Notes under the pieces: model-generated
The model's database searches: none
Told to the model about the DNA's origin: nothing
Seen by the model: only the letters and a program-made list of their open reading frames with translations
Source: Uranotaenia lowii
Taxonomy: Eukaryota; Arthropoda; Insecta; Diptera; Culicidae
Direction: 5' to 3'
Length of the DNA: 64,000 nt
NCBI RefSeq assembly: GCF_029784155.1
Contig: NC_073691.1
Span: forward strand, 127,844,714-127,908,713
Shown here: positions 6,094 through 36,437 of the stretch, piece after piece
Layout: every line of letters begins with the position of its first letter
Position numbering within the stretch: the stretch's first letter is position 1
Translations under genes and position numbers: made by a program

Positions 6094-6179
6094 TACTAAA
6101 ACACATCGTTTACTTTATTTAAAAAAAACATCATAAAACGAACAATTTTGCATTAGTTATACATAACAAAAATTCAATT

Positions 6180-6430: not shown

Positions 6431-6454
6431 CAATGGTTGATCACAGCGGAAGCT

Positions 6455-7691: not shown

Positions 7692-7727
7692 TCCTCAAAG
7701 ATTTTCGAAAACCCTAAAGATTTCGAG

Positions 7728-13676: not shown

Positions 13677-14215
13677 CGGCCACGCTACGAACTGTCAAAC
13701 CAGAAAACGGTTAGAAGTGAAAATTTGCGACGAACCAAGAAAGACAAGTGACGCTCTGCGTATATTTTATAAATTAACGATAGTTTTAGTTGTTAAAGTT
13801 GTTTGTGCCATTCGTGAGTACCTTTTTAAATTGTTGTGAACCTTTGACTAAATCTAACTTTTTGTAATATTTAGCGCACATCGGTAAAAACCCGATCTAA
13901 GGCTGATACCACGCACAGTCGAGCATTCCTTTCAAAAGGGCCGATATAGGTTAGATTTTCTTTTATTGGTATCAGAATTATTTGTAATAATGCGCATTTT
14001 CTCGAACTCTAGGCCAGAAATCTATGCTCTCGATTATAACTTGGCATCAAAACACGGAAACTCCTCTTGTACTAAAGGAGACAAATGTAAGAAACAAAAA
14101 ATCCTATGTAAAACTATTTGCCCTAATAAACTCATTGTTTTTTAGCTTTGAGCTGCTCCTGCTCCTGCTCCAACTAGAGCTGCTGCGAGAACCTTTAGTG
14201 AATTATATTCCAACA
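13635..14215 (+). repeat. 3' LTR of BEL/Pao element
   Basis: Second copy of the 581-bp LTR, apparently identical to the first. It overlaps the end of gag-pol (stop at 13674-13676), a layout that constrains the U3 end. It is followed directly by the target-site copy GAAG. Confidence 0.95.
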
Positions 14216-14294
14216 GAAGTTTGAAGGAGAAAATCATTGTTCGGTTGTATGATTATGATATTCAGGCAATCTGGGCCTTTGCAACACTACCTAC

Positions 14295-17278
14295 CAGAGG
14301 TGCAAAGAGATCCCTACATGTAGCATGCAGCGCACGACTTTTAGCCGATTCTAACAGACCGACGTCAGCCACGAAAGAATCGTCTTGCAAAGTTGCAGAC
14401 TGATTCTTTCTCCCTTATGTGCAGAACGTCGAACGTGTCTGCAAGTAAAAGCCAACCGCGCGGTAAAATCCTTTGACTGCACGTTCCGAAAATTACAAAC
14501 GATTCTCCGAAGTTAGGAACAGTTGCAAACTTGCAAGCCCGAAGATAAAATCCCTTGAGCCGAACAGAAAGAATCATTTCCGAAGATAGCTACAGTCTGC
14601 AAGTTGCTTGCATGCAGCGCGATGATGCGATGTACGTTTGCAAACTTGCAAGTTACAGTTCTTGTGCGGTTCGATTTGATCCACCCCAACCCAACCTAAA
14701 ACCGAACCGAATCCATGGCATGGTGTAAGAAAATGATAGGCCGAGGTGCCGTCGACTATCCATTCAGTTGCCGTTCAGCCAGCGAAGCGGCATGCCGTAC
14801 GACAAGAGCAAGGACATGTTGAAGTTGTTGTTGTTGGTGCCTTCGTGTTCGTTTCGTTTTCTTCTAAGACGGATTCGAAAGGAAGTGGTGCCCAAATTTT
14901 ATTTGAATTTTCAATTATCATACCAGGGTGATTGATATAAATCATCAAAGCAAATACAAGCAAATTTGTTTTGATTATAACTTTGTCATTTTACAAGTTA
15001 TTTATAAACACAAAGTTGTTAATTAAAACTGATCCAAACTCTGTTGGAAAATCATCTATATTGTTTTATAACAGAGCTGCCTTAAAATTCTTTAAAGTTT
15101 CGTTCCGAAAAATTCAATCGATTCTCCAAAGGCAGGATCACTTGATTAGTAGGATCACAGATTAAATTGTGTGAATTTCAATTTTAGAATTCAGTTTCAT
15201 TTGCTTAGACATGTATAAGAATCACGTCATCTTTACCAAGTTATCTACAGTTTTTACAGAAAGTTTTTACAGATCGGTACAAAACTCAATAGAAATTCAG
15301 TGCTTGCTCGTCGTCATTCCAACCTTGAACTCAAAAACTTCACACACTGTTTGATTCGAATCTTCTGTCAAAGTTTTATAACTTGTTTTTAATTAATTTC
15401 GCGTTCTGAACTAGAATTTTTGGTCAGATTTTGTCTATCGCATCCAGTATTACTGATAAGGCTTTTAAAAATCAGTGCTATGATAAATCAATTACTGTCT
15501 ATATATTATTTTTTACTTCTTTGCTGAAGACTGTAAAGCGTTTTAAGTTATACTTTGAAAAATATCTATAATTCATTTTGGTATAAAATTTCATCAGAAT
15601 TTCGTCTCAACAGAAGGAAGAAAAAATTTCTTTTACTTCAAAGCCAAAATTACTTGCAGTCTTCGTAGAAACTTAAATTTTAAAAATCTTACTCAACGGT
15701 TGCTATTTATCTCAGATATTACGAAACTGCTTATAAAAAGCTGGACGTTTCACGGTTAAACATATCCCGCTTTCGCCCATCAATCAGTCAATTGCATAAT
15801 CTTCAAAATAAGAAGTATGGAAACTGAATAAATTATTGATTTATGTTTCAAAGTCAGCAACTTATGTACTTTTTATCAAAATAAATTGACTAAAGGATTA
15901 ACATGAATGAACATTTTCATACAAATCGGAATTTTTTATTCAAGTTTTTAAAGCTGTTTGCGTATCTTTCGTAACGAACTTTTGAAATCTGCCACTTTTA
16001 AGTTTAACTTCGCGAGAACTACTATGAAGAATTTTTGCAAAAGGCTTTGATAAGTATCTCAAATATCAAAATTTAAATAAAACAAGTCCAAAAAAGTAGA
16101 TTTTCAAACAACTGCTGAATCACATATTTGAAAAACGCTGAATCACATTAAAAAAAACGCTTTGATACGAAATATGAATTAATGGCATGAAATCAAATAA
16201 CATCGCGTTTAAAGGTTGAAGTGACAGTGAGCACTTAGCTTATTTAATAGAACTATGAACGGTAATGTGTATCAACTCCATTTCATTTTACAACGGTGAC
16301 CAAAAAAGGCACTCAGCTCGATCATTTTATGTTAACCTGATTTTCTTTGATTTTTCTTTTCAAGCTCCTTGAATTTGTGCATGTTGGCAACCCTGCTCTC
16401 AATACTGAATCTTTAATATGTGATTCTATTTTATCAAGTGATCCTATCCATGGAGAATGGATTGAATTTTTCGGGCCGCAGCTGTGTTATAAAACAATAA
16501 AGATGATTTTCCAACATTTTTCGGATAAGCTTTTATTAACACTTTTGTATTCATAAATAACTTGTAAGATGACAAAGTTATAATCAAAACAAACTAGTTT
16601 TTATTTGCTTTGATGATTTATCTTAAACACCCTAGAATGATCATTGAAAACTCAAATAAAATTTGGGCACCACTTCCTTTCGAATCCGTCTTAGAAGGAA
16701 ACGAAACGAGCACGAAGGCACCAACAACAACAACAACTCCAACATGTCCTTACTTCTGTAGTACGGCGGCGCACCGAGTGTTTTGCAGACAGCCATGTAC
16801 ATACGCTACACACGCACGCTTCGATGGCTGAACGGCAACTGAATTGATGGTCGGTGGCTGTGGCTCTTCGGCCTATCACTTTCTTTCTCCATGGATTCGG
16901 TTCGGTCGGTCCTAGGTTAGTGGAACGAATCCAACCGCACAAGAACGAGTCCACCGTCCTGTAACTTGTAAGTTGCAACTTGCAAATTTGCAAACGTACA
17001 TCGCATCATCGCGCTGCATGCAAGCAACTTGCAGACTGTAGCTATCTTCGGAAATGATTCTTTCTGTTCGGCTCAAGGGATTTTATCTTCGGGCTTGCAA
17101 GTTTGAAATTTTCGTAACGTGCAGTCATCGCGACTTTTACTTGCAGACACGTTCGACGCTCTGCACGTAAGGGAAATAGAATCAGTCTGCAACTTTGCAA
17201 GATGATTTTTTCGGAGCTGACGTCGGGCTGTTAGAATCGGCACTGCATGTTTCATGATGGGATCTCTTTGCACCTCTG
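14295..17278. mobile_element. Non-autonomous hAT foldback element
   Basis: The 8-bp duplication CTACCTAC (14287-14294 and 17279-17286) flanks termini CAGAGGTGCAAAGAGATCCC and its complement, which is the typical hAT start. The arms are long inverted repeats, about 14295-15190 and 16390-17278, diverged by substitutions and small indels. The spacer of about 1.2 kb has no meaningful ORF. It is 2984 bp in total and encodes no transposase, so it must move in trans. It lies about 80 bp from the BEL 3' LTR and 80 bp from the helicase splice acceptor. Confidence 0.88.
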
Positions 17279-17358
17279 CTACCTACAAATTAAACGTGTT
17301 TGATAAACTCTGTCTTTCAAATTCATCTGGTAATGTTTATTTTTTCTTGTAATTCCAG

Positions 17359-19184
17359 ATGAATCCGTCCCCGGAAATGGCCGCGCTACCATCCGCTTCG
17401 AGGGCCGTTCGGATGATGTGAAAAAAGCACGCCAAGCCGTTTTTGATATCCTGAGATCAGGTGATGGCGGAGGAAGAGGAAGCGGTGGCAGTGGAGGATC
17501 TGGCAGCGGTGGTGGAGGCTACGGTGGAGGAGGCTATGGAGGTGGCGGTGGAAGAGGGAGAGGTGGCGATAGACGCGGAGGGAATGATTACTTCAGCAAT
17601 CGTACAAATGATGGCAATCGAGATCGATCGCGCAACGATTTTTACAACTCTGGCAGTAATGATAACAATAATCGTAGCACAAGTCCTGGCCTGATCGATT
17701 GGGATGCCTTGAATAAACAGTGCGATGAGGCTCGCAAAGAACGCTGGCAGAAGTGTCCTCCGCTGACGAAGAATTTCTATAACGAACTACCAGAGGTAGC
17801 AAACATGACCGCAGAAGAGGTCAATACTTTCCGTTTAGCAAACAACAATATTGTTGTTGACCGTACCTTCAAAGAAAATGCAGATACCGACGCTCCTATT
17901 CCTAATCCAGTGCAAACGTTTGAGCAAGCATTTGGAGCTTATCCAGATCTGTTGGAAGAAATTGCCAAAGCTAAATTTGTAAAACCATCACCTATTCAAG
18001 CACAGGCCTGGCCCGTGCTACTGAAAGGAGAAGATCTTATTGGAATCGCCCAAACAGGCACAGGGAAAACATTGGCTTTCCTGTTGCCGGCTTTCATCCA
18101 TATTGAGGGACAAACGGTGCCACGAGGTGAACGTGGTGGCCCTAATGTGCTAGTTATGGCTCCAACGCGTGAATTAGCGCTACAAATAGAAAAAGAAGTG
18201 TTCAAGTATCAATTCCGGGACATAAAGGCCATCTGTTTGTATGGCGGCGGCGACCGTCGGGCTCAGATCAACAAAGTTGAAGCAGGTGTCGAGATAATTA
18301 TCGCAACGCCAGGCCGGTTAAACGATTTGGTTAGTGCTAATGTAATCGACATAACCAGTATAACATATCTGGTATTGGATGAAGCCGACCGTATGCTGGA
18401 TATGGGTTTTGAACCTCAAATACGAAAACTTCTGCTGGATATCCGCCCAGACCGCCAAACTATCATGACCAGCGCCACATGGCCTCCTGGTGTTCGAAGG
18501 TTGGCACAAAGCTATATGAGTAACCCGATTCAGATTTATGTTGGTACGCTAGACTTAGCAGCGACACACACGGTTACTCAAGAGATAGAGGTAATCGATG
18601 AGGAAGACAAGTTCATACGTATCATGAACTTCGTGAAAAATATGGGTCCCACTGACAAGGTTATCATATTCTGTGGGCGCAAAACACGAGCCGATGATCT
18701 TTCGAGCGAATTTGTGCTGTCCGGAATCAACTGCACAAGTCTTCACGGGGACAGGGATCAAGCAGATCGCGAGCAAGCTTTGGCAGACATTAAAAACGGT
18801 GACGTCAGAGTTCTTATTGCAACCGATGTGGCTTCTCGTGGCCTGGACATCGAGGACATTACCCACGTTGTAAATTATGACTTTCCTCGTAATATTGAAG
18901 AATATGTTCATCGTGTGGGACGAACAGGTCGAGCAGGAAGGAGCGGAATCTCGCTGAGCTTCTTTACGCGTACGGACTGGGCTGTGGCTTCCGAGTTGAT
19001 AAAGATTTTGGAGGAAGCCGATCAAGAAGTTCCGAATGAGATTCGTGCGATGGCAGATCGATTTGCTGCTAAAAAGGAACGCGATGCCAGGGAAGGAGGT
19101 CGGGGTGGACGAGGAGGGGGAGGTCGTAGAGATGGTGGTGGACGTGGTGCAAGAGGAGGAGGTGGTGGTGGCGGACGATGGTAA
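17359..19184 (+). CDS. DDX43: DDX43-like KH/DEAD-box RNA helicase, coding exon 2
   Basis: Spliced to 4320-4704 this gives a 736-residue ATP-dependent RNA helicase. The acceptor is TTCTTGTAATTCCAG at 17358. The exon first completes the KH domain (GNGRATIRFEGRSDDVKKAR), followed by a second Gly-rich linker (about residues 161-195). The SF2 core follows: Q motif (KPSPIQAQAWP), Walker A AQTGTGKT at 359-366, PTRELALQI, TPGRL, DEAD at 469-472, SATWP near 500, VIIFCGRK, RGLDIED and HRVGRTGR at 646-653. The C-terminus is an RGG-rich tail. The KH domain plus SATWP and VGTLDLAA after it fit DDX43 (HAGE) better than Vasa or DDX5, which lack KH. Human DDX43 is somewhat shorter; the glycine-rich insertions explain the difference. 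All catalytic motifs are intact. The family unwinds RNA; germline roles are known in mammals, and a similar role here is inference. The nearest poly(A) signal is AATAAA at 19603. Confidence 0.95.
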
Positions 19185-19620
19185 CCACTTTCCTGGAATG
19201 TGTAATTTAGATGAATGTACAGACAGCAGTACCCTTAGGCCTTGCTGTAATCGAATTGTTGTATCAGACTGACATTTTTTTTAAACTAACTATCCAATCT
19301 TCTTTTGACAAGAAGATGAACTGAAGTATTTGGTTTCGAATTGTTGAAATTAGAGTGTAGAGAGAAAAAAAAAACAAAAACAAAACATTTCGAATAGAGA
19401 AATGTACTGCACCTGTAATAAGCCTGCATTCGTTTGAATCGTTTATTTTCTAATACACTATGAACAAACTGTGTTTGTTGTAAAAAAAAAATCGAAAAAA
19501 AAATATTGACACAGAACTAAGCGTAGGTTATATAAAACCGACTCGATTATAAAAGAAAGATTTATTGGATTTGAACCACTTCAAATAATTTTGTTGATTA
19601 ATAATAAATCTATATTGAAA
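19185..19620 (+). other. Probable 3' UTR of the DDX43-like gene
   Basis: AT-rich DNA directly after the stop codon, ending near an AATAATAAATC poly(A) signal (AATAAA at 19603-19608). A further AATAAA cluster lies near 20140. No competing feature is present. Confidence 0.5.
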
Positions 19621-21426
19621 GTTAATTTGTTTTTTTTTTCTGAGCCAATCCGATGTTTATGGTAGAGGATATTTTAACACTTGGATGAGCAACCTGTGGC
19701 CCTGGAGACATGTTTGTGCAGCCCGCGAAGCTTGTATTAAATTGAATTTTTATTTCACGATTTACCTACTACCTACCTACTACATTTAATGTGTTCTTTT
19801 GAAGGTATAGCTGCAATATTGAAAAATCGTGATATTTTTTTTTGTTGCATTTAAATAGCTGTGGGAAGCTGACGCTGAAAAGGAAATGTTGGTAGAGGGG
19901 TCAGGGAATTGAAGTTTAGAGTAGGCAGCTTAGAATAGTAAGCGATCTTAAGATTTTGGCTATACCATCTTACACTTCCTCAAGTCCACTTAGGATGAAT
20001 ATGAACTTAAAGCAGAACAAGATAGTGAACTAACCCTCTCATGATACCAGTTGGAGGAATTACGTTGGCGGTTTAAGACAGGTCGCTCACTTAATCTTAA
20101 CGAAACTAACTACTATTAGGTATTTTATATATAATTTGAAACAATAAAATAAAATGGACAGCCCTCACCATGTTATAGAACTCTTTTATTATAACAGGTA
20201 CTATAATTGACGATTTGCAGCAAAGCTATTTCACATGCAACGCCAACTGGTTGCCACTAATGGAACTAACAAAAGGGTGATGATAGCAGTTTTTCAACAT
20301 GTCAGTTAATACAAATTTTTTTAAAAACTAAGTTTTTTTGTGGAAACTATCAAGTTTCTAACCATTATAATTGCTAAATCTTGTAAGAAAATCATTATTT
20401 TACTAGTTTCATTGCTTTTTTCGTTAGTAAAAATTATTTCGCATAAATTTTCAGTCAAATTCAATTTTGAATTTCCCAATTCAAACCACAAAAAGTACTC
20501 AGGAGGTGAATGGGCTGCTCAATAAGATGTTGAGCGATGTCCGGGCTGTGTAAATACTTTTTCTAATTTAAAGGGTCGCAGACACAAATCAGTAAAAAAG
20601 ATACGTCCTGATAATTTCCTTGAAAATTGAACCAATGTTAAAGTAAAGAACAATGAACAGTAATTTGTTCGTTTATTAACTTTTTTTTACCAAAATACAA
20701 GTGATAACTGTTAAATTCTAAATGACTCAAAACCACTTATAGCTATGCATAAATATTTGCATTGGTGTGTGGTTTTGTCAGGCCGATGCGAATAATATTT
20801 TTGATAGGTAACGTAGACAAATAAAACATCCCTTGCCAAGGTAGTTCCTAATCAGTTCCGTCCGTTCCGTCACATTATTTGGCACTTGTTTTCCGAAAGA
20901 GGTTCAAGTTATTTTTTCATCCAATGATGCTGCAAACAAAAATTCTTTCCAAGCCGTATTTTTTCCAAATCGTCCCTTTTTCGAAAACTTTTGCTTCAAA
21001 AACGGCACATTAAACAATCTTTCCGCGTATAAGGCATTTCCCGACTTGTCAACCAAACAGCTGATTCCTCATGTTTACAATTTTCGGCATCTGGTGGTAG
21101 GGTAAAAATAACAACAACACTACGCATGTTCAATGGCCGGATAGTAACGAAACCAAATTGGCGATGCAATAGTAATGGTTATGCGAAATTCTAATTTTTT
21201 TAAATTAGCTAAAATTGAAAAAAATGTAGACATGACATACTTTGAAGGTAATGTTGATCTTATGTAATGTTAATTTGAAAAAATTATATATTTTGAAGAA
21301 ATAATTTAACAGTGCTTATCTTCCAAGTTCAAAATGGCGACCAGTAAGTGTTCACATTTTTCAAAACAAAAACAAAATGCTACCCTACCAAAATCTGTCT
21401 CAGGAAATGCCTATAGGCCTTCCAAG
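19620..21426. other. AT-rich intergenic DNA
   Basis: No gene is recognised. Near 19690 the stretch GAGCAACCTGTGGCCCTGGA resembles a hAT-type MITE terminus, without a visible partner. The 61-codon ORF at 20340 is low-complexity. Confidence 0.4.
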
Positions 21427-21891
21427 CAGAGGTGCCAGGTCGTTTTGTCAAAAATCAGGACAACGCGAAGAAAAAATCATGATTTTTCAGGACACCACCA
21501 AATTGGTGAAAACAAAATGCAGTTCTGCTAAGATTGCATAACTAAAGGCGAAATATAGGTGCTGAAGACGCCTCGAATTATGCAGCTGAAGCGAGAATAA
21601 CCTTGGCTGGCCTGCAGTTCATATCGAAAAACCTCATTTGAATGTCATTTGAATCAAAGAATCTCTTTGGTTTAACTGGTTAAACAAATTTATTTAAGAT
21701 TTGTTTGATGTTCTCGTCATTTAACAATAAATTAAGTTATGATTTGGATATTTTCTAAAAATCAGGACAAATCAGGACATTTTAAGGCCAATTTTTCAAA
21801 AATCAGGACAATTCAAGCGTTTTTGAAAAATCAGGACGGTCTCTCGAAAATCAGGACAAATCCTGATAAATCAGGACACCTGACACCCCTG
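21427..21891. mobile_element. hAT-type MITE with AAATCAGGACAA repeats
   Basis: Termini CAGAGGTGCCAGGT and ACCTGACACCCCTG form imperfect inverted repeats. The 8-bp target site CTTCCAAG is present at both ends (21419-21426 and 21892-21899). The interior is dominated by AAAATCAGGACAA repeats and has no coding capacity. Length 465 bp. Confidence 0.82.
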
Positions 21892-21924
21892 CTTCCAAGC
21901 AGCTGCAAGTTGACACTTTTCATG

Positions 21925-22816
21925 CACGGAAAATAATAAAAAGGTAAAATTTACCGAGTTAGCAAAGGTGAACGCTCGTGAAAGCTAAAAAGGTAACTTC
22001 TACCTCTTCGAGGTGAAACTCACCTCACAGTGAGGTAAAATTTACCTGAATCGAGGTTGGAAAAAAGGTACAATTCACCGAGAAAAACGGTGAATCCAAA
22101 AAAGGTAAATATTACCTCGTAGCGAGGTGAAGTTCACCTGAATTGAGCTCGATAAAAAAGTATAATTCACCTATAAAAAAAAGGTAAATCCAAATAAGGT
22201 AAAACTTACCTCGTAGCGAGGTGTAATTGACCTGGATTGAGCTAAACAAAACGGTACAATTCTTCTAAAAAAAAGTAACTATTCGCCGAACCCATTCATT
22301 GAGGTTAAGCTGTTTTGTCATTCTAGGAACAAGTTTTGCTTTGTGCCTAATATGTGAAAATCGGAATAGAATGGTAAATGTTCTTAAACATTAGTTGTGC
22401 TGGTTCTCGTCATAATACTGTTGATTTTGTTTCAGATCGGCCCATAGAGCTTTGAGGTGTATTCCACATCATACTCCAGCCGGAAAAGCCGAACCTGACC
22501 GGATTAGTCGAACGGAGGAGGCCATGAATGTACGCAACTTAGGTGGATTCAGCGGCCATAGCGGCTCAGAAGAACGCGAAGCCGAATTACCAGTCCCTAT
22601 CTATCTCCAATAAATATCATTTTTGAAAGAATTTTGTATTTTTTAAATTCTTATTGAAGAAAACAATCAAACCAACCAGCATTTACCTTTTAAATCAGTA
22701 AATGGGAAAACGGTATTATTTACTATTTTGCTAGGTGAATGCGAAAAAGGTAAAATTTACCTTTTTGCTAGGTGAATGAAAAAAAGGTAAATTTTACCTT
22801 TTTTTTATTTTCCGTG
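21925..22816. mobile_element. TIR element with GGTAAAATTTACC repeats carrying a terminal exon
   Basis: The ends CACGGAAAATAA and TTATTTTCCGTG are inverted repeats. Both subterminal regions are built from AAGGTAAAATTTACCT and related palindromic units (21955-22270 and 22680-22800). Between them is unrelated, coding-like DNA (22436-22613) with a splice acceptor and poly(A) signal. No transposase is encoded. A target-site duplication is not clear. Confidence 0.65.
22436..22613 (+). pseudogene. Captured 3'-terminal exon with poly(A) signal
   Basis: A good acceptor (GTTGATTTTGTTTCAG, ending 22435) leads into a frame open for about 58 codons (AHRALRCIPHHTPAGKAEPD … LPVPIYLQ). It stops at TAA 22611, which overlaps AATAAA (22609-22614). 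The GC-richer composition differs from the flanking MITE arms. No upstream coding exon was found inside the element. The family is not recognised. This looks like the last exon of a host gene picked up by the element. Confidence 0.4.
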
Positions 22817-23331
22817 TGTATTTCCGGAGAACTAAAAATTAATGAAAAAAACTGATTAACATGTTTCGAAAAGTATAGGCGATTCAAGAATTCACTTTTT
22901 CTTACCATATTATTCAATCAAAACTGACTAAATAGTTTGTTTAACCATTTAACTGCGAAATTTTCAAAAACCTTCTTGTGTTTTGGAAAACTACTACGCG
23001 TTTTGACACTTGCGTCCATAACATCATCATTTTGATCGCAGGGCCCTCTGAGTGTCGTTTTGAGCTGCGAATCGCCAATAGGTGTTGATTAAATCCTTGG
23101 GATGACCACCACATCATGCGAAACCATCTTAGGGGTCCAATGTTGAGAGGAGATGGTTGAATGCTTGTTCGTCATCATCAAAAGATCACATGAAAAGAAA
23201 TACAAAAAAGAAAAGAAAAATAGGATAATATAGTTCATTTCCTCTATCAATATATAATAGGAAGCCTAGTTCAAACCATCTAGTTTAAATATATTGATTG
23301 ATATCGTCTACTTAGAACATGAAATGCACAA
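22817..23331. other. Unassigned AT-rich DNA
   Basis: No gene, RNA or repeat structure is recognised in this stretch. Confidence 0.4.
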
Positions 23332-24529
23332 CCCAGACAACCAGAAGTCGTATTTTCTTTTACAGATTACATCGTATAGAATGTTATTTATACTCATTTT
23401 CGTATATCTGCACCTACAATGTGCGGTTCATGCATATTCTTTATCGTATTTAAAAGCATTGCATGATTTTATTACGACAAGAAGTGAGACTCGTATTTAT
23501 GTACATATGAACTCGACCTTTGTGTACGACAATTCGCAAACAAATCCGTGAAACGACCCATATATGGTGATCAGCCGTGACTGAGAGATTTTGTCGTGCT
23601 ATGCATAAAATAATTCGAAATAAAAAACGTTTATAACTGTATTGATTCGTAATAATGTGCATGCAATCGTATACCTTTGCAAATTAATTCGCATGTCTGA
23701 TTTTCGTAAAACGTATCTGCTGGCAATCGTAAAAGAATACAAAAAAGTTCAGTAAAATCGTTTATGATAATGGGACATCGATGATTGGAATCGAATTAAA
23801 GGTGGCTTCAAAATGTTGGTCTATTTTTAGATCATCGATGACGTGTTCTACGGTTTAAAAGATTTAAGTTATAGAAATATACGATTTGCTTTTGGTTTAA
23901 TGCCTTTGAAGCAAATCCCCTTGAATTTATATATCCCAGATAGCTTCGAGGAACCATCATGAGCTGCAGATCGTATGGTCAGGGGATCAAGTCCAGGTAC
24001 TAACAATAAAATCAGCTATCTGGCAAATAATAAACTTGTACGATATAAACTTGAATTTGACAGCAAAAAATGCATTTCTTTGAAATAATCTCATTTTTAT
24101 TATTTTTATGGATGAATAAACTGATTGGTTTAAAGTATAAAAAAAATAATAATCTTAATTTTATTCAACTGACGGAAAATGAGAGCCCTGCACTCAAGTC
24201 GCAAAAGACGACCAAATAAATCGTCAAACTTTCCATATTGTTACGAAAAATGTCGTATATTACAACCTCAACCATCTATATGATAATGCAAATTGTCATA
24301 GTATATTCCAAAAAGAATCAGGGTAGTCGTAAATGATGCGCATGACAAGTCGTGCAAATCGTAATTTAATACAATCCAAATCAAGAATATGTTTGCTAAT
24401 GTACCTATATGGCCTCCAAAATGATACGTATATACTGGTTTTGCTACATTATATACGATATGTTTACAGGTATATTTGCATGTATATTTGCGTTGCAAAT
24501 TCGAAACACCCACCAAATGGTTGTCTGGG
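23332..24529. mobile_element. CCCAGACAACC…GGTTGTCTGGG element
   Basis: The terminal inverted repeats CCCAGACAACCA (23332) and TGGTTGTCTGGG (ending 24529) enclose 1198 bp of AT-rich DNA. The interior has many TCGTA-containing motifs (TCGTATTTATGTACATATG and relatives). AA flanks both ends, which may be a 2-bp target site. There are no convincing ORFs. The CCC…GGG ends resemble the elements at 25414, 40259 and 50666. Confidence 0.6.
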
Positions 24530-25413
24530 AATGCTGTTCTTCTAAAACCTAATCCTTATTCTGGTCAGCCTCTCTGACAAACTATGCTAAGAGCACCTGC
24601 AACGGTTCAGGCGTAAATATTGGTTTTAAGTATACCAGTTTTAGCAAAATTTTAAATTTTAGAATCGGCTAAAACACCCACTCCCCACCGGTGTAGGAGC
24701 AAATTTAAAACGGGAACACTTTCATTACAGACACTCAATAATTGAGAAGAAAAAACCCATTTTATTGGAAAAATGGCATAAGTTTTGAGTTTCACGGTTG
24801 ATTGTCTTAAAATTAATTCTACGAATATTCTTTTTGACAGAACAATGATTTTAACTATTCTACCAGGATTTCATTAATTTAAAAGCAAAAATGACTACAC
24901 AACGAGGAAAAAAAAGGTCAATTGAAACAATTCTTTAATTGATTTAATCAAATTGCTTTGAATCAATGGAATAAGGTTTTGTTAAAATGAAATGAAAAAG
25001 CATTTTTTTTTCAAGCTATTGCTGACATTGATAAAAGAAACGAGAAATGTTTATCCCAAAGTCAAAGGAAATTTTCCTTTGATTTGTCGACATTTTTGTT
25101 TGACAAAAACTTGTTTCACTTTGTAAATTTATGTATGGATACAGAATAATATGCTGCCATTGGCGAAAACTCCGAGCAATCTATACGAAATCTCTCAATA
25201 TCTCAAATAAAACAAAAATTATAGAACAAACAATAAACATAAACAATTAAATATTTGATTTACCTCATCGAAAAAGTATTAAAATTTTCTTTTCGTTTCT
25301 TTTTTTCAAAAGCTTTTTATTTAATTATATTAAATCGAGAATAATGTGACATCTATTATTATTTATACTTGATATGGTTTTTATTAACATCTATTCTCAA
25401 TTTATGTTACGTA
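24530..25413. other. AT-rich DNA, no gene
   Basis: Near 24600-24720 a GC-richer piece (AAACACCCACTCCCCACCGG) could be a MITE end. The rest is AT-rich without recognisable structure. Confidence 0.35.
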
Positions 25414-25587
25414 CCCAGACAGGAAAAATCGCCCGAAATCGGCCCGATTTTTGTCCGTTCATCTGCTCGATCGGTCCGAAATCGTATAAGAAATCGGGCC
25501 GAGTTTAGTACAAAATCGCGCGAAAATGAAACACTTTTTCGGACGACGATAAGTTTTTTCAACCAGTTCGAGCAGATCAAATGTCAA

Positions 25588-25885
25588 AACAAACGAACCG
25601 TTTCCGGACCGAAACCGAACGATTTTTGAACCGTTTCTGGGCCGATTGCCATAGCGTCCATCCGAAACGATTGACCGATATCGGACCGAAACCGCACGGT
25701 TTTTCGAACCGTTTCTGAGCCGTTTGCCATAGCATCCATCCGAAAAAAGGACCGATTTCGGACCGAAACCGAACGAATTTTCGAACCGATTCTGGGTCGA
25801 TTGCCATTGCATCCATCCGAAAAAAGGACCGATTTCGGACCGAAACCGAACGGTTTTTCGAACCGTTTCTGGGCCGATTAGCATT
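25588..25885. repeat. 77-bp tandem repeat, about 4 copies
   Basis: A unit containing GGACCGATTTCGGACCG, then CGAACGG, then TTCGAACCGTTTCTGGGCCG recurs every 77 bp (for example GACCG at 25673, 25750 and 25827). The spacing is not a multiple of three, so the long minus-strand ORFs through it are repeat artefacts. It lies in the subterminal part of the candidate element starting at 25414. Confidence 0.85.
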
Positions 25886-26369
25886 GTTGCCATTCATTTA
25901 GATTTTTCGGTTTTTCTTCATAAAGAAAGGTATTTAAATTTATTTGTTTTTTTTTATTTTTCTCCTAATTTATGCTTTAAATCATAACTAGTATTAAACA
26001 TAATTGTATAATTATAATAAAATAATAGAAAGTAATAACAATTTTTAATGGTTTAACGTTTGAAATTTCCAAACTAAATTGAACCTCTCAACACCGAGTG
26101 AACATTCATTTTGGGAATTTTCTAACGCAGTCTCAATGCTACAATCCTATTTGCCTACAGTTTTTTACATGATCTATTAAATAAACCTGTTATTTCCACT
26201 AGGAGGTCATTTTAGGCCTTGGTTTCCTATTATTTTACCGAGTTTCAATTTAACTATTTATTGTTAACGTAAAACTGTTTAAATTAACTTCTGATAAAGT
26301 AATTGAAACGGTTGACGCTAACTGCTGGCATCAATATGAGTATCCGGAGTGTTGTTGATCCTGCTGTCA

Positions 26370-26925
26370 TGATGATTGCTGTCGTTGTGGTTGTTGCGTG
26401 GCCGGCTTTTCGGTCAGTTCAGCCCAACGCCTCTACAAAGCTGGCACATTCTATGAACAGCTGTGCCCACCGGCGAATCGTCATCGTTGTACATTTCACA
26501 GTTGTGAAAGATGAGCAGGACGTTCATTAAAGAAGTCCTCCTGTGATTTGTAGATATTGAAGGATGAAATGCACCTACGGATACAAAAGGAAAAAGATTT
26601 TCAAATAATTCAAAATCAATAAAATGGGGTAGCAGCAAATACCTCCATCTCCTCGAACACGGGGGCAACTCCTTCATTAATTTCTTAGCCTTCTACTCCT
26701 TCTTGGCTTGTTCCTTAACCTCTCCGAACCGTTGTTGCTCCTATGGGACTGTTGCAGTTTTGGTTCAACTGAAGATTCCGAAACCAGGCCTCGGATAGAC
26801 TCGTAACCAACCGGTGAATAATAATAATTTTTCGAACCAAGCCACTGGCCGCTACTATCGAACTGAGATTTGTCCATGCTACTCATGGATTCATTGAGGC
26901 TACTGTTCTCCATGTTGCACCTATT
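26370..26925 (-). pseudogene. BAZ2-like bromodomain fragment
   Basis: Block 26925-26640 reads MENSSLNESMSSMDKSQF and, in a shifted frame, EVKEQAKKE*KAKKLMKEL. After an intron the next block gives IYKSQEDFFN, then a frameshift (an extra A near 26522), then VLLIFHNCEMYNDDDSPVG, another shift, and RRWAELTEKPATQQPQRQQS before a stop. The segment NCEMYNDDDSPVGKAGH-like followed by FEARW-like residues is the last part of a bromodomain. Its spacing is closest to BAZ2A/BAZ2B (Drosophila Toutatis). Bromodomains bind acetyl-lysine on histones. Several frame breaks mean this copy is not functional. Confidence 0.6.
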
Positions 26926-29204
26926 ATCGTTCGGTAAGAAACCCCCTTTTTCAACCTAAAAAGACAAATTGAAATATATTTAGGAAAATTGAATTTTTGA
27001 AATCTTTTTCCAAATTTTACTTTACAAAGTACTGTAAACAAAAGTGCACCAAATTTACAACTTATTTAAATAGTATGTTACACTGAACTCGTTAGCTATC
27101 CTAATTTTATTTAAAATTAATTAATAAGTAATTAAAAATGTAAAATTAAAAATATTTTATGATCAAATTTTGCAAATTATTTTTTACGTTATTGAAAACT
27201 AAGTAAAACTCCATTATACTTACATGAACACGGACAAGTTGCGATTTAAACAGAGTCGGAGGGCAGCTCGTGGGGCCATCTCAGAATCATGAACAGTTGT
27301 TTAAAATAACGCTGGTCAGCCGAAACCAGATTGCTTAATAACGGCTACTCAGGCGACATGAAAATTACGATGACATTCCGGTGACCGACTCTTGTTGACT
27401 GGCTGTTGTTCAAGTCAAAAAGACCTACAAGAAAAAAAATCATAAATTTTACATTTATTATCAAAAAAGGTCAGATACGGGAAACATACGTTACAGAGAA
27501 CAAATAGGACGTTCGTTCATATCATTTATCAATATCTAATAAGAAACCTCGCTCAATCTAACAACAACTTCAACTTATATAATAACAGATACACTTTATC
27601 TTATACCTATCATAATATCACAAAATTATACCCTAGGATTATGGATATATTAACCTATCTTACAGATTTAGCCTCATCCTACTTGCCTCACAACCCTACC
27701 TGATTAAATGGTTTTTTGAAACAAAAATACTAGCAAAACTTAACACTAAAAATTAAATTATTGTTTTATTTAAGTTATCAACATACGGGTTGAAATATGA
27801 TAATCTACTTTATTCTAACTGTTTGAATATATTTATCTTCAAAAAAAAAACAGTAATTTAAAAAAATCTAAAATTAAATTCAAAATGAAACAAAAAACAA
27901 AATACATTCCCTCTTCCTTCTTCGATGTCTGCAATCGGCAGCAATGATTCTTGGTATTTTCTTGTTTTGCTTATCATTATTCATTATAATCAATCATTAA
28001 AATCATCCCTGGAAGGAATCGCTTCTTATGAGAGGAAAATTGAGTATCAAACGAAAAATAACCCCCTTATACAATAAGATTTGTAAAGTTAGGAAGGAAG
28101 GAAAGAAAGAAGAAACAGCATGCAAAAAACTTCTGACACAGCTCCTTAAAATCGACTAACTTGACTTAAAATTACCTGTTCGAGATTTGCTTCAGTGACT
28201 GACCGACTTCCAGCAGGAGTTTCTCATTGTCATGCACATTCTTTCTGCCCCCAGAACGTAGCGAGAGCGACTAATTCTCTACCCGGGTGATCAGCTCCCG
28301 GAAGTGAAACTTAGTGTGCGGTGGAAGCGTTTCGTTGTCGGCAAATGTAACACAGCAGAACAGGAGTGAATTCAAGCCCTCGCATAACTGGGAGGCCGAG
28401 ATGGAATTGACTGGGATTTTAAGACTGCCCTCGGGCATGTTGATGAGTTCTAGGATGCCCTCCCAGCTGACCGTCGACTAGGGTGCCGAAGAGGAGGAAG
28501 CCGTTTTCCGATAGCAGCGAACTGTTGCTGATTCGGAACCAGCGTCACGTTGATCGAGGAAAATTTTAATGGTTTAACCGGGTGATGCGATGAGGTTTTG
28601 TTTTCGTGATTATAACTATCGATTTGAGCAACCGCCTTGAGCATCTTTCAGCCCTTTCTTCAGACCTATGGTACTGAAACTTCGTTAAAGTTCGGTACCT
28701 GGCGTAGCATAAGACTCAATCGTACTTCAACACTAAAGCATTTTATTGCTTTATCATTACGCTGGTTTACGTCTGGCTCCAGTGGCATCCAAAGATTGTC
28801 AAAATCGACAATCCAGCAATCTCGGCATAATTTTATCAACAAAATCTGAAAACGAATCAATAATTGCTAAATGATAAACTGATTCAAATGAATTATTGTT
28901 AAATTGGTTACCTTTGTAAGAGGGGACAATATAGTAGCGCGGATTGATGAATCGTCTTCGTGGTTGGCAGACGTCTCATTCGGTGAATGAAGTCGCCGTA
29001 CTAGTTTTGGTGTCATCTTTGTACCGTTGCTAGCATAAGAAAAAAAAATCAAATTAAAATCAGATCAGCCGCTTGTGAATCATTTTACCAAAAATAAAAT
29101 AATTTACTAAACTAAATTAAATTTCTTATCTCCTAATAAAAAGTATCAACCAATCTTTGAACGATTATTCTCGATGATTAGATAGCAGTAATTGTATTGT
29201 AATT

Positions 29205-29380
29205 TGTTAAGTTGTATGAACATTCATTATCAAATACATATAGTAACCCTAACTAACATGAAATAATAATTCATTCATCCTATGATGCCAACACTGTTTG
29301 ATCAGAGACACATCCGGTTGATTCTATAACTTCACTTCTTGTACAACCAGTGACCAGAGTGGAGGGTTTAAGTGCAAACA
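29205..29380 (+). repeat. Left LTR of the GLG1-bearing unit
   Basis: 176 bp, starts TGTTAAGTTGTATGAAC and ends AAGTGCAAACA. It is uninterrupted and so serves as the empty-site reference for the hAT insertion in the other copy. It is preceded by TAATT. Downstream to about 29600 are many GAATCTTGAATCT-like simple repeats. Confidence 0.8.
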
Positions 29381-29673
29381 GAATCCAAGTCTTGGATCGT
29401 GGACCTGAATCTTGTATTATAATATTTAATTTGAACCTTGAATTTTAGTTCTTGACTCTGTATGTGAATCTCGAATCTGAGACTTGCATCTGAATTTTGA
29501 ATCTTGAAATCGAATCATCAATGTAAATTCGGAATCTTCTGAATTCTGAATTCTAAATGCTGAATCTTGAATCTGCAATCACTTGAATGTTGAAAATCCA
29601 CGCAAAAGCAACGATTAGATGATAACACTTAACGAATGAAAGGACAAATCACACTTGCATTGTTCTTATTCAC

Positions 29674-32165
29674 CTGACCGGATCCGTGCGGCACGTTGAA
29701 GCACAGCTTCGCGATCTCGGCCTGGCAGGCATCTTTCAGCAGCGGATCGAAGTCGATGTTTTCCCGCTGCTGGTACAGCTGGGCCCGGACCTCCTTGCGG
29801 CACTCCTTCGGTATCGAGTGTTTCGCCTCTTTGATGGTATCGTTGCGCATCACCTCGCTCAGACAAGCGACGACGTCATACTTGGTGTTGCTGCGCGGGC
29901 AAAAGCGGGTCACGTACGGGCGGCAGGCTTCCTTGAATTTATAGGTGAAATGATAGTTTTTAAGGGAGATGATCTGGAAGTGTTCGATTGCGGCGCGACA
30001 TTTGGTGTCGACTCTCATATCTGCGTAGTTTTTGTAGTTTATCAAACACTCCCATCATTTCTCCCTCGTCTTTGCCAGTTTTTAGAATGTTGGAACAGTG
30101 TTTCTGCATAGCGTCCCCACAAACGGCCATAATTACCGGATTCAGTTCTACGTGAGCGGCTTCCTCTTCTGTAAAACGAATCACGGCGTTTTTGCAATTT
30201 TGCGCAAGTTTGTCTAGGTTATCCTGCAAGCATTGCATTTCTTCGCCTTTTCCTGTTTTGTCGAAGCAAAAGTAGGAGAGATCGTCAATGCACTCATCTT
30301 CGACTTCCGGAATGAGATCGACCGATCGGGCTCGCTGCCGCATTACACGTTTGACTTCCTGGAAGCATTCCTGTTTCAGCTGCAAGTCCTTTTCCGGGTG
30401 GTACGTGTACCGGTGCAAACAAGGCAGGATCAGGGGACCTTGTTCCGGGTCCATCTGGGCCGTGTCCAAATCGCCCAAGTTTTTTTCGCCCGACAAAATT
30501 TGATGGCGTCGTCCTTGCAGTTTCTAAAACATTAAATTAAAAAAAAATTAAAAAAAACGCTTCTACTTTGTGCATATTCGTTACCTGTACAACTGCGGAT
30601 CCTATTTAAAATCTCGGGCTACAAAGTACTGAATCTGCAGCAGGGCGGATTCGCAATCGGCGTTCATGAAATTGGTACCCAACTTTTCCATCAGACAGGA
30701 CATAACTCGTGCATCGCCTCCTTCAGTATCGGAGCATGCTACATCCACCACCGGTTTGCAGGCCTGCCTAAGCACAGGATCAACCCGCCAGTCCTCGCCT
30801 GCATCGGCAACTTTGACCAGAGTTTCCAGAGCTCGTTGACACACTTCAGTGACGCGTCGTTCCTTCTTTTTCTTCGGTCGAGCATGATCCATCAAACAGT
30901 GGATAGTCTTGCCTCCGGCATCCAGATTGCTGCAGAACTTATCAATGTCCCCAGCACATCCAGTTAGAATTTCCGGCGAAAGTTTGTAGTCTTCCATCAG
31001 CATTCGTCGGTGGTCGTTGATTTCGACCACACAATCCTGACTCAGCTTAGTGTTGTTCTTCTGAACGCCTTCCAAACAAAGCAAAATTTGTGCCAACCGC
31101 ACGTCCTTATCGTCGGAAACACCCCGGCGACAGTGATGCAGTTTGATGTCTTCCTTGCAAGCCCTCGTCAAACCCTTGCTGAGCTTATAATCGTGGGCAA
31201 TCAACTTCTCTCTTCGAAGCAGTTGTTTTTGGCAATGGTCGGTCATGGCAGCATCGTTCCGATTTTTCATCAAACATTTCAAAACCAGCTGGGACCCGGC
31301 CGGAATCGAGGGACAGAATCGAATTGCATCAACGTCACAGGATAGGAACAGCGGCTTATCCAGCTTTACGTCCTCGACCTGAATCTCGGACAGATGCAGC
31401 ACTCCCTTGCGGCAAACTTCACTCAAAGTGTCCAGATGGCTTTGGAGACAGGCGATCGTTTCTTCTTGGGAAACTTTTTTGTTATCGTTGCCCAGGCGAC
31501 CACAGTTCAGGGTTTCGATGTCCCGGGTACAATCCTTGAGGAACGGCCCTATTAACCGGTAATCGGAGAAAGCTACGTACTCCAGACGTTGAATGTATTC
31601 CCGGCAACCGTTTCCCTTGACCTGATCCCGATGGTCGATTATACAGGACAGATACTGACCCGGAAGATCCGCGCTCGGTGTGCAGGGGAACTTGTCGTAG
31701 TGCTTTGGACAACCTGAAAGGGGAAAAACGCAATATATTTGACGAAAAATACTGCTTTTTTAACTTGACGCATCCAAAACTGGGTTATTCATCCAGAATT
31801 CAGCTTTTCAAAATCATAATTTGAAAATAAATTCAGAAGAAATTACCTTTCTGTATCAGCCGCTGCACGTTCCGATCGTCCAGCAGGGCCGAGGTGTGGG
31901 CCCAAATCAGATGCTGACAGTCGTCGCTGAGCGCATCGACCCGTTCCTGCGGCAAATTCTGGACACCATCCAGGGCCTTCAGATCCCCGGCCGTTTCCGG
32001 CACATTCGGGCACAGCGTCCTAAGCTCCGGGCAGGCTACCTCTTCCAGCAGCTTCGGATTTTGTGGGCCACCCGCATTGATGACTGCCTGAGCTTGGGTT
32101 GTCGGTGACCACACGGTTACCAGCAAAAGAATCGGAAGGATGGCTTTCCCGAATCCTTCCATCAC
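29674..32165 (-). pseudogene. GLG1: Truncated GLG1 (Golgi apparatus protein 1) copy with introns
   Basis: Three exons on the minus strand: 32165-31847 (ATG, signal peptide ILPILLLVTVWSPTTQA), 31713-30585 and 30523-29674, with GT-AG introns in matching phase. The protein is made of cysteine-rich GLG1 repeats (CREYIQRLEY, ACKEDIKLHHC, CAGDIDKFC, ECIDDLSYFCFD). GLG1/ESL-1 is a type I Golgi membrane sialoglycoprotein. The family is about 1,000-1,150 residues; about 760 codons are present here. The copy ends at a splice donor (GGTCAG|GTGAAT), and the C-terminal repeats, membrane segment and tail are absent. Breaks: TAG at 30604-30602 just before DPQLYR, a 1-base loss near 30475, and a 1-base gain near 30048. 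The 450 bp upstream to 32620 probably includes the original 5' UTR and promoter. It lies antisense between two LTRs. Sequencing error is unlikely to explain three lesions plus the truncation. Confidence 0.88.
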
Positions 32166-32620
32166 ATTAACTTGAATTTTCCAGTTGGTATCCCAGGGTT
32201 TGTTGTTCTTTTGTTCCCGGTATTAATTTTTTTCTGGTTCGACTTTTCTCTGACACACTTGGAAAACAGATGAGCGAATCTCGACCGGAAGTCGGTCCGT
32301 TATAGGCGGAACATTTCGCTCACTCTCGAAATCTTCAGAAAAGAAAACTAAAACAGGAACTTTTTTAATTAATTCAGCTGAACTTCAGGGAGCCGAAAAA
32401 CTGTAAACCTGTTCCCTGGTACGTGTCCAGTCCAGCGATGATAAAAATTCGTCGAAGCGAACTCGACGAAAAAAGAGAAGAAGAACCAGCAAGATTTGAC
32501 AGCTGCGTTCTGAGGACGTGTGAGAGTAGTCACTTTAAAAACAGCTAAGGGAGAAATCAGAAGATCCGTTGGCAAATTGTGTCCACTGCCTATTCAATAA
32601 CTTTCTCGGCGGGGGGAGTA

Positions 32621-33779
32621 TGTTAAGTTGTATGAACATTCATTATCAAATACATATAGTAACCCTAACTAACATGAAATAATAATTCATTCATCCTATG
32701 ATGCCAACACTTTGATCAGACACACATCCGGTTGATTCTATAACTTCACTTCTTGTACAACCAGTGACCAGAGTGGAGGGTTTAAGCACTGATGAACTGA
32801 TGTACAAGCTCGAACAAAACATCTTCAAAAACTTGTGTAAAATTTCCAGTGCTCTCTTTTAAAGAAGCCGTTAAAAAGTGACGAAAAACAGTGCCATCTA
32901 TTGCTTGACTTGTAACTTTTGAACGGCGCAACAGATGGCACTGTTTCTAGATAGCTCTTTTGCAAGTAAGAATTTTTCGAGAGGGCGAAATGGTGTTTGA
33001 ACTCATTAATAAATAAATTTAAATACAATTAGATGAATTGCTCTATGTATGTAATTAGATGAACTAAGAATAAATTTCAGCTGAAAAAAATAGCATCATT
33101 ATAATATTGTCACTAGAGAGACTGGCGAAATGACACATATACAAATGCTATCATTCAAGCAAGCCGAATCAACTTTTGAAGTACCTGATTCTTGGAAGAG
33201 CGCAATTGTATATGATCTTAAAAATTAATAAACTAACATCGTAGAAAAATGGACGGCTTCAATATATTCACAGCAAGATAAATTCATCTGGTTCATTTTA
33301 CCTCGATTCTTTTTACTAAGGAGGCTAACTAACAAAGCCAGACGAACCAGTTATTTTATCCAGTTGAGCTTAAAATTAACAATCCAACAAAGACATACAG
33401 ATTCTAGGCTTCTCTGAGAGGGCATTTTCACGCATCATATCTGTTTATATTAAGTGCTTCATGCTAGTTTGAAGCAATTCGAAAAACAGCGTTAAGCGTA
33501 AAATTTTGATAATGCAAATCAGAAATGTGTAACGAATCTTCAACATCAACTTGATCGAAACTCGTCAAATAGATACGACCTTTTCATAATTGACTAAAAG
33601 TTTGTTGTTTTTTTTTGTTTACATTTCATTTTCTTCTTGACAGTTCTCTCTGGTGTCCTTGGAGACATCTGGTGGCTCAACCAAAAAACATAAAATTGAT
33701 TCAAAACGGTCGTCGGGACTTTACACACTTTTCAAGGCTTAGCTTGTACATCAGTTCATCAGTGGTTTAAGTGCAAACA
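32621..33779 (+). repeat. Right LTR of the GLG1-bearing unit, split by an insertion
   Basis: 32621-32786 and 33772-33779 together match the left LTR. The intervening sequence is a hAT-like insertion with a duplicated GGTTTAAG. It ends in AAACA followed by the TAATT target-site copy. Confidence 0.8.
32787..33764. mobile_element. hAT-like element nested in the right LTR
   Basis: The 24-bp perfect terminal inverted repeat starts CACTGATGAACTGATGTACA (32787) and is mirrored at the right end (33741-33764). The 8-bp target site GGTTTAAG is at 32779-32786 and 33764-33771, sharing one base with the TIR. The left LTR at 29362-29376 shows the uninterrupted site. An internal stem, AACAGTGCCATCTATTGC against GCAACAGATGGCACTGTT, lies at 32887-32945. 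It has no transposase ORF. Length about 978 bp. Confidence 0.85.
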
Positions 33780-33784
33780 TAATT

Positions 33785-34040
33785 AATTTATAAAAGCATC
33801 ATGATCCTCAATCTGTGCCGCACGTGAAGTGACGATAGTCGAGTCACTCCATTCCAGGAGTCGCTTTGGGTGAGGAACGTCACTTCGGATGAATTTTGGT
33901 AATGAACCTCTGTCACTTCATTTACCCCGACTATCTGAATAAGGTGACTAGAGTCCCATGAGGGTAAGATGCCTCGACCGACGTCACCTCACGCGCGGCG
34001 CAGAATAAGGGCATATTTATTTAATAATAATAATAATCTT
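33785..34040. other. Short GC-richer stretch rich in GTCACTT/GAAGTGAC
   Basis: Bases 33820-34005 contain several inverted copies of GTGAAGTGACG, TCACTTC and GGTGAC. They may be a small MITE or part of an intron of the decayed minus-strand gene. No coding capacity. Confidence 0.3.
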
Positions 34041-36437
34041 ACCGGTTTGTGGCCATTTCCAGTTGTCTCGCCTTAATTTCTCCAGGTCATCATCAAACCA
34101 TAACTGGACGTTCCGTAATAACATTATAATATTATCCTCGAAACCATTAGAAAGGCAGGACGGTCTGCAGCGATAGTGTACAAATGACTAAAATCTAATG
34201 TTGGCTTGTGATGGCATCTTTCCAATTTCCAGAATCTGCAAAAGAGAAAAAATATTGCAGTATTCCATTATAAATGGAATTTATCTTTTATGAATGCCAA
34301 ATTTTTAACAAGTTTAACTTTTCTCACCTGGTATGACCTCCGATGATGTTGAACATCAGGAGCAGGAAAGGCGACGCCAGATAAGAATTTTTCAGCCATC
34401 GACATTCGGCAAGCAAAAACACTGCTTCTGGCAACCTGAATAGGTGAAATTTGGAATATTAGTAGGTACTATTTTTGTTTTCAAATTGTCCAATAAAATA
34501 TTATCATTTCATGATTATCAGGATAATTTGAAATTGCTCATTGAGTATAGATCATCATTATCTATAAGTACTCAATAAGCAATTTCAACTTATCACGGGG
34601 AAAGAACGTCCTGATTTAATTTGCGCTAAAAATTATAATTAAATTACCTATTGTTGCTGCTGCTGGTGCCTTTGCATCTAAATAGGTCCTCCTAACTTGA
34701 CACTGATCTTTATGGAAACTCTTAAATCATCAGCTTTCAATCGAGGAAGGTTTTTCCTGGTCCATCTGTCGTCCAAGTTAATTTGCTTGGTTCGCTTTGA
34801 TTCTGCTGTTGCGCTGCCTGTTGCTGTCGTTTGATAATGAAGGGCGGAACTTTGTCACCGGTTGTAGTGAGCCGTAAATTTAAGAAGTACGGTTGGTTTC
34901 GAAGTCCATGGTATAGCGAACCAGTCGTCAGTGTCAGCTAAGAACCTGAAATCAAAATCAGAGAAATAGGTACGATTCCTAAAATTTTTAAATTGACTTA
35001 GATTGGTAAAATAATCTTAACAAGATGATTTTTCTAAAATTTAGTTCCAGTACTGCTTTAGAGCTTGTAGAAACAATTCTTGGTCTTTTCGCTTCGACCA
35101 AATGAGCGTTGCAGTAATGAAACTAAAAAAAATAAAACATATCAGCTGAATTTTGATTAGTATTCAGTGATTAAATTAAGGAGGTGAGAAAAAAAATACA
35201 ATTTCAATGCAAGTACTGAGGTCAAAGCAAATACCAAAAATGCCATCGAAAATACTAAATATTTTTCCTTCTGAAGTGAACAAACGGAACAAACATTTAA
35301 AAAACACAGAATGTGAGAACATCACAGTTAAATTCTCGTGCCGCGCCGCCACGGAAACTTACCGTACATTCGTCAAACTCTATGCACATTAGCACTTCTT
35401 CCTGCTTCAGATCAAAGGGCTGATCAACCAGTTCCGCTATTTGATTTCCACCAGTTTAATCCCCGGTCGATCCGATGTCGAAGGTACGACCAACTCTGGA
35501 GCTATCGAAACTGGCCGGAATGAAACTAAAAGGCGTTGAATTTAGCTCACCGGAATTTGTAAGTGTTGGAGCAACTGATTATTGAGAAGGAAAACTGAAA
35601 AAATGACTTCGTTCACAATGGACATAAAAAACGAAAAATTTTACCTGTATCGATTTTATGACTGTTTACACTTTTTGCATATGGTCGGTGCACCGACCCG
35701 ATTGCTTCCCAGATCGGAAAAAATCTTTGTTCACCAGGTGGATCGGTCAGAATAGCTATCTATGTGACTATTGGCCATCAAATGATGTTTGTTGGTGCAG
35801 GAAGTCGTCGTTGTGGTAGCATACTGGGAGGCGGAGAAACTTTAGCTACGGAAGCTTCCCGAATCACTTCCGCTTAAGCTACAGTCTCTGGAACTGGAAA
35901 CAACTTGGTGCTGGATATGAAATCACCAGTATTTTGCGCTCCGTCCAACCGCTCCAAATGGCTAATCCAAGCTAAACGGGAAATAAAAAAAGAGCAATGA
36001 AAAATAAGCGTTTTTTCGCGATTTTTATTCTGTTATCATGAAAACACATCAATGGCGGCTTTTTCTTATCCATATCGATATTCCTACTATGGATTACGGG
36101 TTTTGTATTCCGTGAAGAGTGGATTTAACACCAGTTGATAAACCGTCCTCCCTAAGCAAACAATTTGATAACAAAAATTGAAGAGGAAACACTGATTTGC
36201 AACATATTTTCACTAAAACAATAACGCACACGACGACGGGAAAAACTAAAATGGCAGTAATCGCGACTTTGTTTCGTTTCGTTCATGCTTCGCAAAAAAA
36301 ATACCGTTTAGATTTCGAGCAATCGAGCAGGTGGATGGAAATCGAACCGAAAACGAACCGATTTCTAACCGCTAGAATTCGAGTGCCGCCATCTCTGTTT
36401 TGCAATCGGCCCGATTGAGCAAACGTTCCTGACAGGG

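Follow-up and report, generated by a model that had tools for sequence, protein, structure and literature searches.

We analysed a 64,000-nucleotide stretch of the genome of the mosquito Uranotaenia lowii (NC_073691.1, positions 127,844,714 to 127,908,713; hereafter the window). It contains a long terminal repeat (LTR) retroelement of the Bel-Pao type whose interior is the 5' part of a host gene, GLG1, in antisense orientation and with its introns in place. The sequence comparisons indicate a real gene capture by an LTR retroelement, of an unusual type, recent, and from a source other than the resident GLG1 gene. The capture is nested in a DNA transposon, which apparently multiplied it. The assembly that we searched is 1.08 Gb, and its contigs C1, C2 and C3 are 216, 437 and 370 Mb; the window is on C1.

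Structure of the insertion

The unit is bounded by two nearly identical direct LTRs with TG..CA ends, and the 5-bp target duplication TAATT lies at both of its outer borders, as the original prediction had proposed (Table 1). Such ends and such a duplication are those of a Bel-Pao insertion. The two LTRs differ by one substitution and one 2-bp indel over ~174 aligned sites. The right repeat had been taken for an uninterrupted copy; it is broken by a nested 977-bp insertion and measures 174 bp once this is removed. The duplication around the nested insertion is 8 bp, or 7 bp if its last G is assigned to the insertion. The host stretch was also retrieved in six older copies. Three of them span the insertion site and all three are empty, with the target present once and slightly diverged; the other three do not span the site. 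The same LTR-GLG1 body is found on C2 at 99.7% identity with the same flanks, and the left LTRs of the two copies are identical over the first 162 bp. The unit is therefore not a chance arrangement, because it recurs on another chromosome. An arrangement of two independent solo LTRs flanking a gene is rejected in view of the outer duplication, the empty sites and the unit on C2.

Table 1. Coordinates of the retroelement, its GLG1 segment and the carrier transposon in the window
Feature	Position	Strand	Remarks
Host terminal inverted repeat (TIR) DNA transposon (carrier)	25414..36437	.	~11 kb; ends CCCAGACAGGAA / CCCTGTCAGGAA; 2-bp duplication TA; high-copy left end
Target-site duplication TAATT, left	29200..29204	.	
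Left (5') LTR	29205..29380	+	176 bp, TGTT..AACA
GLG1 intron 3, part	29381..29673	-	293 bp; adjoins LTR end; from alignment with resident GLG1
GLG1 exon 3	29674..30523	-	two one-base frameshifts
GLG1 intron 2	30524..30584	-	61 nt (resident 240 nt)
GLG1 exon 2	30585..31713	-	stop at codon 476, window copy only
GLG1 intron 1	31714..31846	-	133 nt (resident 675 nt)
GLG1 exon 1	31847..32162	-	with start codon
GLG1 5' flank, untranslated region/promoter side	32163..32516	-	354 bp; 98.6% to resident (349/354)
Bel-Pao-type pol 3' end and polypurine tract	32514..32620	+	28 codons and stop, 32514-32600
Right (3') LTR, first part	32621..32786	+	
Nested DNA insertion	32787..33763	.	977 bp, inverted ends; splits right LTR; duplication GGTTTAAG
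Right LTR, second part	33764..33779	+	includes duplicated target of nested insertion
Target-site duplication TAATT, right	33780..33784	.	

The GLG1 segment as a whole occupies 29381-32516. As predicted, it lies on the minus strand between the LTRs and includes two introns and the 5' flank; the start codon is present too. Three GLG1 reading frames were scanned, and two of them match Cys_rich_FGFR (PF00839); the exon 1 frame gave no domain match in the same scan. Introns 1 and 2 keep intact splice sites, so the loss of introns that marks an LTR-mediated processed retrocopy is not seen here. The original prediction also had the segment truncated exactly at a splice donor (29674/29673). This did not hold: similarity to the resident gene runs on for 293 bp through intron 3 to the LTR end, which rules out a capture ending at the donor. 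A CTTGAATC-type repeat is present in this part of intron 3 (29390-29594), with matches on C1, C2 and C3 that are often arrayed. The captured gene is broken. The window copy reads 475 codons before its stop, and both captured copies have lost one base near 30472 (codon 499) and gained one near 30051. The C2 copy alone has a stop at codon 87 and a further one-base insertion.

The polypurine tract that had been predicted before the right repeat is present as GGCGGGGGGAGTA. The same tract is found in L032, a fuller Bel-Pao-type relative at C1:114896386-114902695, which has profile matches above the cut-off to DUF1759, Peptidase_A17, RVT_1, Integrase_H2C2 and DUF5641 and an rve match below it. In the window element, Bel-Pao-type pol is represented solely by the 28-codon remnant, whose DNA is 88% identical to the end of the L032 open reading frame (ORF) with DUF5641. 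At the right junction, GLG1 upstream DNA meets the pol end within ~3 bases. At the left junction, the LTR end joins GLG1 intron 3 directly; a 14-nt stretch 10 bases past the LTR is absent from the resident gene, and the match resumes beyond it. The LTR of L032 is followed by a 7-nt spacer and a likely primer-binding sequence, which we take to resemble the complement of the tRNA-Tyr 3' end. No L032-type primer-binding site was found after the left LTR in the window, where intron 3 stands instead, and the comparison with L032 thus rejects such a site at the start of the body. The proposal of a non-autonomous LTR retroelement fits the LTRs, the pol tail and the polypurine tract, but the primer-binding site seen in L032 is missing, and the chimera is probably not an active element of this kind.

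Source of the captured gene

The resident GLG1 gene is located at C3:306.59 Mb, and 765 translated residues are 100% identical to the U. lowii GLG1 protein. Two copies of it are present in tail-to-tail orientation, 99.5% identical and separated by a 500-N gap (C3:306588658-306616802, L033-L036); the pair may be a true inverted duplication or two haplotypes placed side by side. Captured and resident GLG1 are 96% identical over aligned sites (3009/3135). In the coding sequence, the window copy differs from the resident gene by 53 synonymous and 12 nonsynonymous changes (dS 0.114, dN 0.0067), of which 51 and 9, respectively, are common to both captured copies. Third codon positions hold 53 of the 65 coding differences (p ~2e-15 against one third). 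Introns 1 and 2 are 22% and 16% different at aligned sites, and the captured ones are far shorter. The C1 and C2 captured copies differ from each other by one synonymous and four nonsynonymous changes, a pattern as expected without selection. The codon pattern indicates that nearly all of the divergence from the resident gene arose before the capture, while both genes functioned. The time since capture, judged from one substitution and one indel in the LTR pair and few neutral changes, is far shorter than the time since the split from resident GLG1.

We also compared the altered residues with eight other fly proteins, from seven mosquitoes and Corethrella. Two of the nine shared differences (codons 53 and 80) give the captured segment the same residue as 6 and 7, respectively, of the 8 proteins. 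The shared changes at codons 189, 510 and 522 alter residues that are invariant among the proteins compared, and that at codon 232 alters one that is invariant in all but Anopheles. The shared changes at codons 11, 180 and 597 are uninformative.

These counts bear on whether the segment was captured long ago from the resident gene and has since decayed slowly or been kept by selection. Such a history could account for the 96% identity, and the C1 copy does retain its splice sites and its 475 readable codons. However, neutral decay at dS 0.114 should give ~100 amino-acid changes on the captured branch (half of 0.114 x 1789 sites), whereas C1 shows 12, of which 9 are common to both copies. A frameshifted 5' fragment is unlikely to have been under selection, and the LTRs are only one substitution and one indel apart. 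We consider an old capture of the resident gene very improbable.

The comparison indicates that resident GLG1 is not the source of the captured segment. Against the intact locus, the truncation falls inside intron 3. LTRs around GLG1 at its own locus would have contradicted the idea of a capture; in the U. lowii genome, which this test covered, neither resident copy has an LTR match in its stretch. The prediction of a host gene carried antisense with intact introns therefore stands in its essentials, through the target duplication with empty sites, the pol tail, the polypurine tract and the LTR/GLG1 junction. From these data, the source is inferred to have been a functional GLG1 copy ~11% diverged at synonymous sites, belonging to another species, to a lost paralog or to a very old allele. 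The chimera was built recently from this diverged GLG1, perhaps in another species.

Close copies of the LTR are few in the genome. Among the best 40 of 59 candidates, five LTRs match at 98-100%, four in the C1 and C2 copies plus a solo LTR on C3; the next is one lone LTR with 91% identity over its length, followed by a group at ~80% over ~149 bp and by ~50-bp pieces at 90-92%, and none of the full-length LTRs outside the insertion falls between 91% and 98%. Among the best 40 of 351 candidates for the pol tail and GLG1 body, the closest other match to the pol tail is 88%, and there is no third GLG1. A 27-base LTR pattern has no matches in viral_contigs. So few close relatives suggest that the resident family has not been recently active, since closer copies would otherwise be expected. 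Together, the LTR family and the GLG1 results suggest, without proof, an origin of the chimera elsewhere. Frequent horizontal transfer of Bel-Pao elements between mosquitoes has been reported, in a study that does not mention Uranotaenia (PMC7728395). Both the GLG1 and the LTR parents may have come from another mosquito species, the segment entering U. lowii as retroelement cargo by horizontal transfer or introgression and then being multiplied by a DNA transposon, a scenario that we put forward tentatively.

A source within U. lowii, either a paralog or a deeply diverged allele that was lost or unassembled, would need no species crossing and opposes only the outside origin, not the capture itself. 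In its favour, related Bel-Pao copies exist in this genome, with LTRs at 80% over 149 bp and, in L032, two identical LTRs. Against it stand the missing third GLG1 (best 40 of 351 candidates scored), the difference of just 0.5% between the two resident copies, and the gap in full-length LTRs at 91-98% (best 40 of 59 scored), although ~50-bp pieces at 90-92% exist. We give this possibility nearly an even chance.

The carrier transposon

The termini of the DNA transposon around the retroelement are inverted over 10 of 12 bases. All four copies with both flanks read have 2-bp duplications (TA in C1, AG in C3, AG in L047 and AA in L048), a length that is weak evidence for any single copy. Inverted ends and a target duplication of fixed length are the marks of a TIR transposon. 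In a search for the left end (best 40 of 777 candidates scored), 38 of the 41 other near-complete matches listed begin at 25410-25414 and three begin 13-24 bases earlier. Two left ends in opposite directions lie within 450 bp at C1:127835930-127836361, ~8.4 kb before the window start. No transposase was found among the 10 short ORFs scanned in the carrier. The sole Pfam pass is F_actin_bind (PF08919, E 1.3e-11) in the ORF at 28271-28477 (-), presumably the C-terminal domain of Abl kinase; the carrier may thus itself hold a host gene fragment there.

Carrier copies with the retroelement are present in the window, at C2:239833871-239848897 and at C3:29780475-29800064. In the C3 copy the retroelement is reduced to a solo LTR, as after LTR-LTR recombination. 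A search for the same GLG1 segment between other LTR pairs had been proposed. The C2 copy is such a case; all copies of the retroelement that were found belong to three insertions of a single DNA transposon. The carrier flanks in C1, C2 and C3 differ by 0.2-0.4% at aligned sites. A plain segmental duplication of the locus is rejected, as the shared flank breaks off abruptly at transposon ends (25414 and 36437). Three such copies could in principle reflect an assembly error; the different outer flanks of the C1 and C3 copies, and nested insertions that differ in all three, speak otherwise. The nested insertions of C1 and C2 are in opposite LTRs. That in the C2 left LTR (L029) is short (CATGATG..CATCATG), with ends that we take to be P-element-like and an 8-bp duplication, GTGGAGGG, adjoining the position of the 977-bp insertion in the other LTR of C1. 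Most likely, judging from the shared flanks, the retroelement inserted once in a high-copy DNA transposon and was later placed by this carrier on three chromosomes.

Proposed mechanism

The captured DNA begins where the LTR ends and follows the direction in which the element is transcribed, as in read-through. We infer that intron 3 of a GLG1 gene once held a Bel-Pao-type retroelement in antisense orientation. RNA from or through its downstream LTR would have crossed exon 3 and reached the GLG1 promoter in antisense, and the introns would have been kept because an antisense RNA is not spliced. An LTR inserted in intron 3 should place the left end at the LTR terminus, where a random switch would rarely land. 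During reverse transcription, one template switch to ordinary element RNA, 28 codons before the pol end, could have supplied the 3' end with its polypurine tract and LTR. Either the junction arose without a primer-binding site using helper RNA, or LTR recombination removed gag-pol at a later stage. Integrase would then have inserted the product in a copy of the TIR transposon, generating TAATT, and movement of the transposon would have taken the cargo to three chromosomes. As a whole explanation, antisense read-through capture of the Bel-Pao type with a template switch and spread by the carrier appears probable to us.

Several points weigh against this explanation. This assembly yielded no GLG1 allele carrying an LTR in intron 3. 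On the element strand, the body contains one AATAAA and three ATTAAA motifs, which could end a read-through RNA. Ordinary reverse transcription would not work without a primer-binding site, which calls for an additional assumption; a different primer-binding site is conceivable in the 14-nt stretch near the left LTR, which includes TGG and for which no comparison with tRNAs was made. The outer ends of the C2 carrier copy were placed by coordinates only.

The junctions could also have originated at the DNA level: a GLG1 locus with element pieces on both sides would have donated, by ectopic gene conversion or break repair, a new interior to an ordinary element at the site, without any RNA copy of GLG1. 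The left junction at the LTR end, the target duplication and the retained introns and promoter side would also be explained. For this route, the donor locus must have had both an LTR in intron 3 and the 3' end of an element upstream. Neither is present in the resident stretch, although that is not the source, and more steps are needed than for a single template switch. We regard it as unlikely.

Other features of the window

A DEAD-box helicase gene (Pfam DEAD, Helicase_C), presumably vasa, occupies 4305-19184, and its exon at 17334-19184 has one full match in the genome. Between the helicase exons lies an open Bel-Pao element (7467-13676), the flanking 581-bp repeats of which are 100% identical. 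When 19185-25900 was searched against the genome (best 40 of 10904 candidates scored), an inner repeat dominated the matches. The window also contains a Tc3-like transposase fragment at 48241-48876 (-) (DDE_3, HTH_Tnp_Tc3_2) and a 2.5-kb inverted repeat at 50648-53196 and 53421-55966, whose arms are 99.3% identical, 224 bp apart and hold inner repeats.

Comparison with known systems

Processed retrocopies have no introns and usually no promoter. Antisense read-through capture, if true, keeps both, and an LTR element could then move a genomic-style gene copy. The captured copy can be dated in three ways, by the LTR pair, the C1-C2 pair and the codon pattern. With neither parent found in the genome, it provides a test case for retroelements carrying host genes between species. 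Its nesting in a DNA transposon suggests that a capture probably unable to retrotranspose may still spread. Among the titles and abstract openings covered by our literature search, none reports an animal case of antisense LTR capture with introns retained, and the main text of PMC3726574 has no occurrence of "antisense" or "intron".

A fuller relative in the genome, L032, also invites comparison. The chimera and L032 share 176-bp LTRs (80% over 149 bp), the polypurine tract and the pol end (88% in DNA over 101 bp). L032 has gag-pol-like reading frames and a primer-binding site, whereas the chimera has just 28 pol codons.

Read-through transduction follows the retroviral oncogene model. As outlined in a plant review on transduction by retrotransposons, an element adjoins a gene and its read-through RNA takes up flanking host sequence (PMC13317346). 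The chimera resembles this, but its gene is antisense, an L032-like primer-binding site is missing and no gag is left. LTR-mediated mRNA retroposition, reported in a mosquito among other animals, likewise joins host RNA to an LTR element by template switching and inserts the product by integrase (Tan et al., 2016; PMC5408686). There, mRNA copies are reportedly joined at microsimilarities, while the chimera keeps introns and the promoter side, which an antisense RNA would be expected to do, and has its left junction at the LTR end.

For the tomato Rider element at SUN, read-through is reportedly the proposed mechanism. Rider, a Copia LTR element, carries >20 kb of the SUN locus (PMC6762207; PMC4034497). 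These reports describe a host gene moved by an LTR element to another chromosome as one large hybrid retroelement, which is the likeness to our case. Rider/SUN belongs to a plant and a Copia element, and is very recent and expressed; the mosquito chimera is of the Bel-Pao type, holds a decayed antisense 5' fragment from a non-resident source, and was apparently spread by a DNA transposon. In this last respect it resembles the Pack-TIR DNA transposons of animals, which are reported to move other sequences (PMC8277862). In the mosquito, the gene piece is nested in a retroelement that itself lies inside the transposon.

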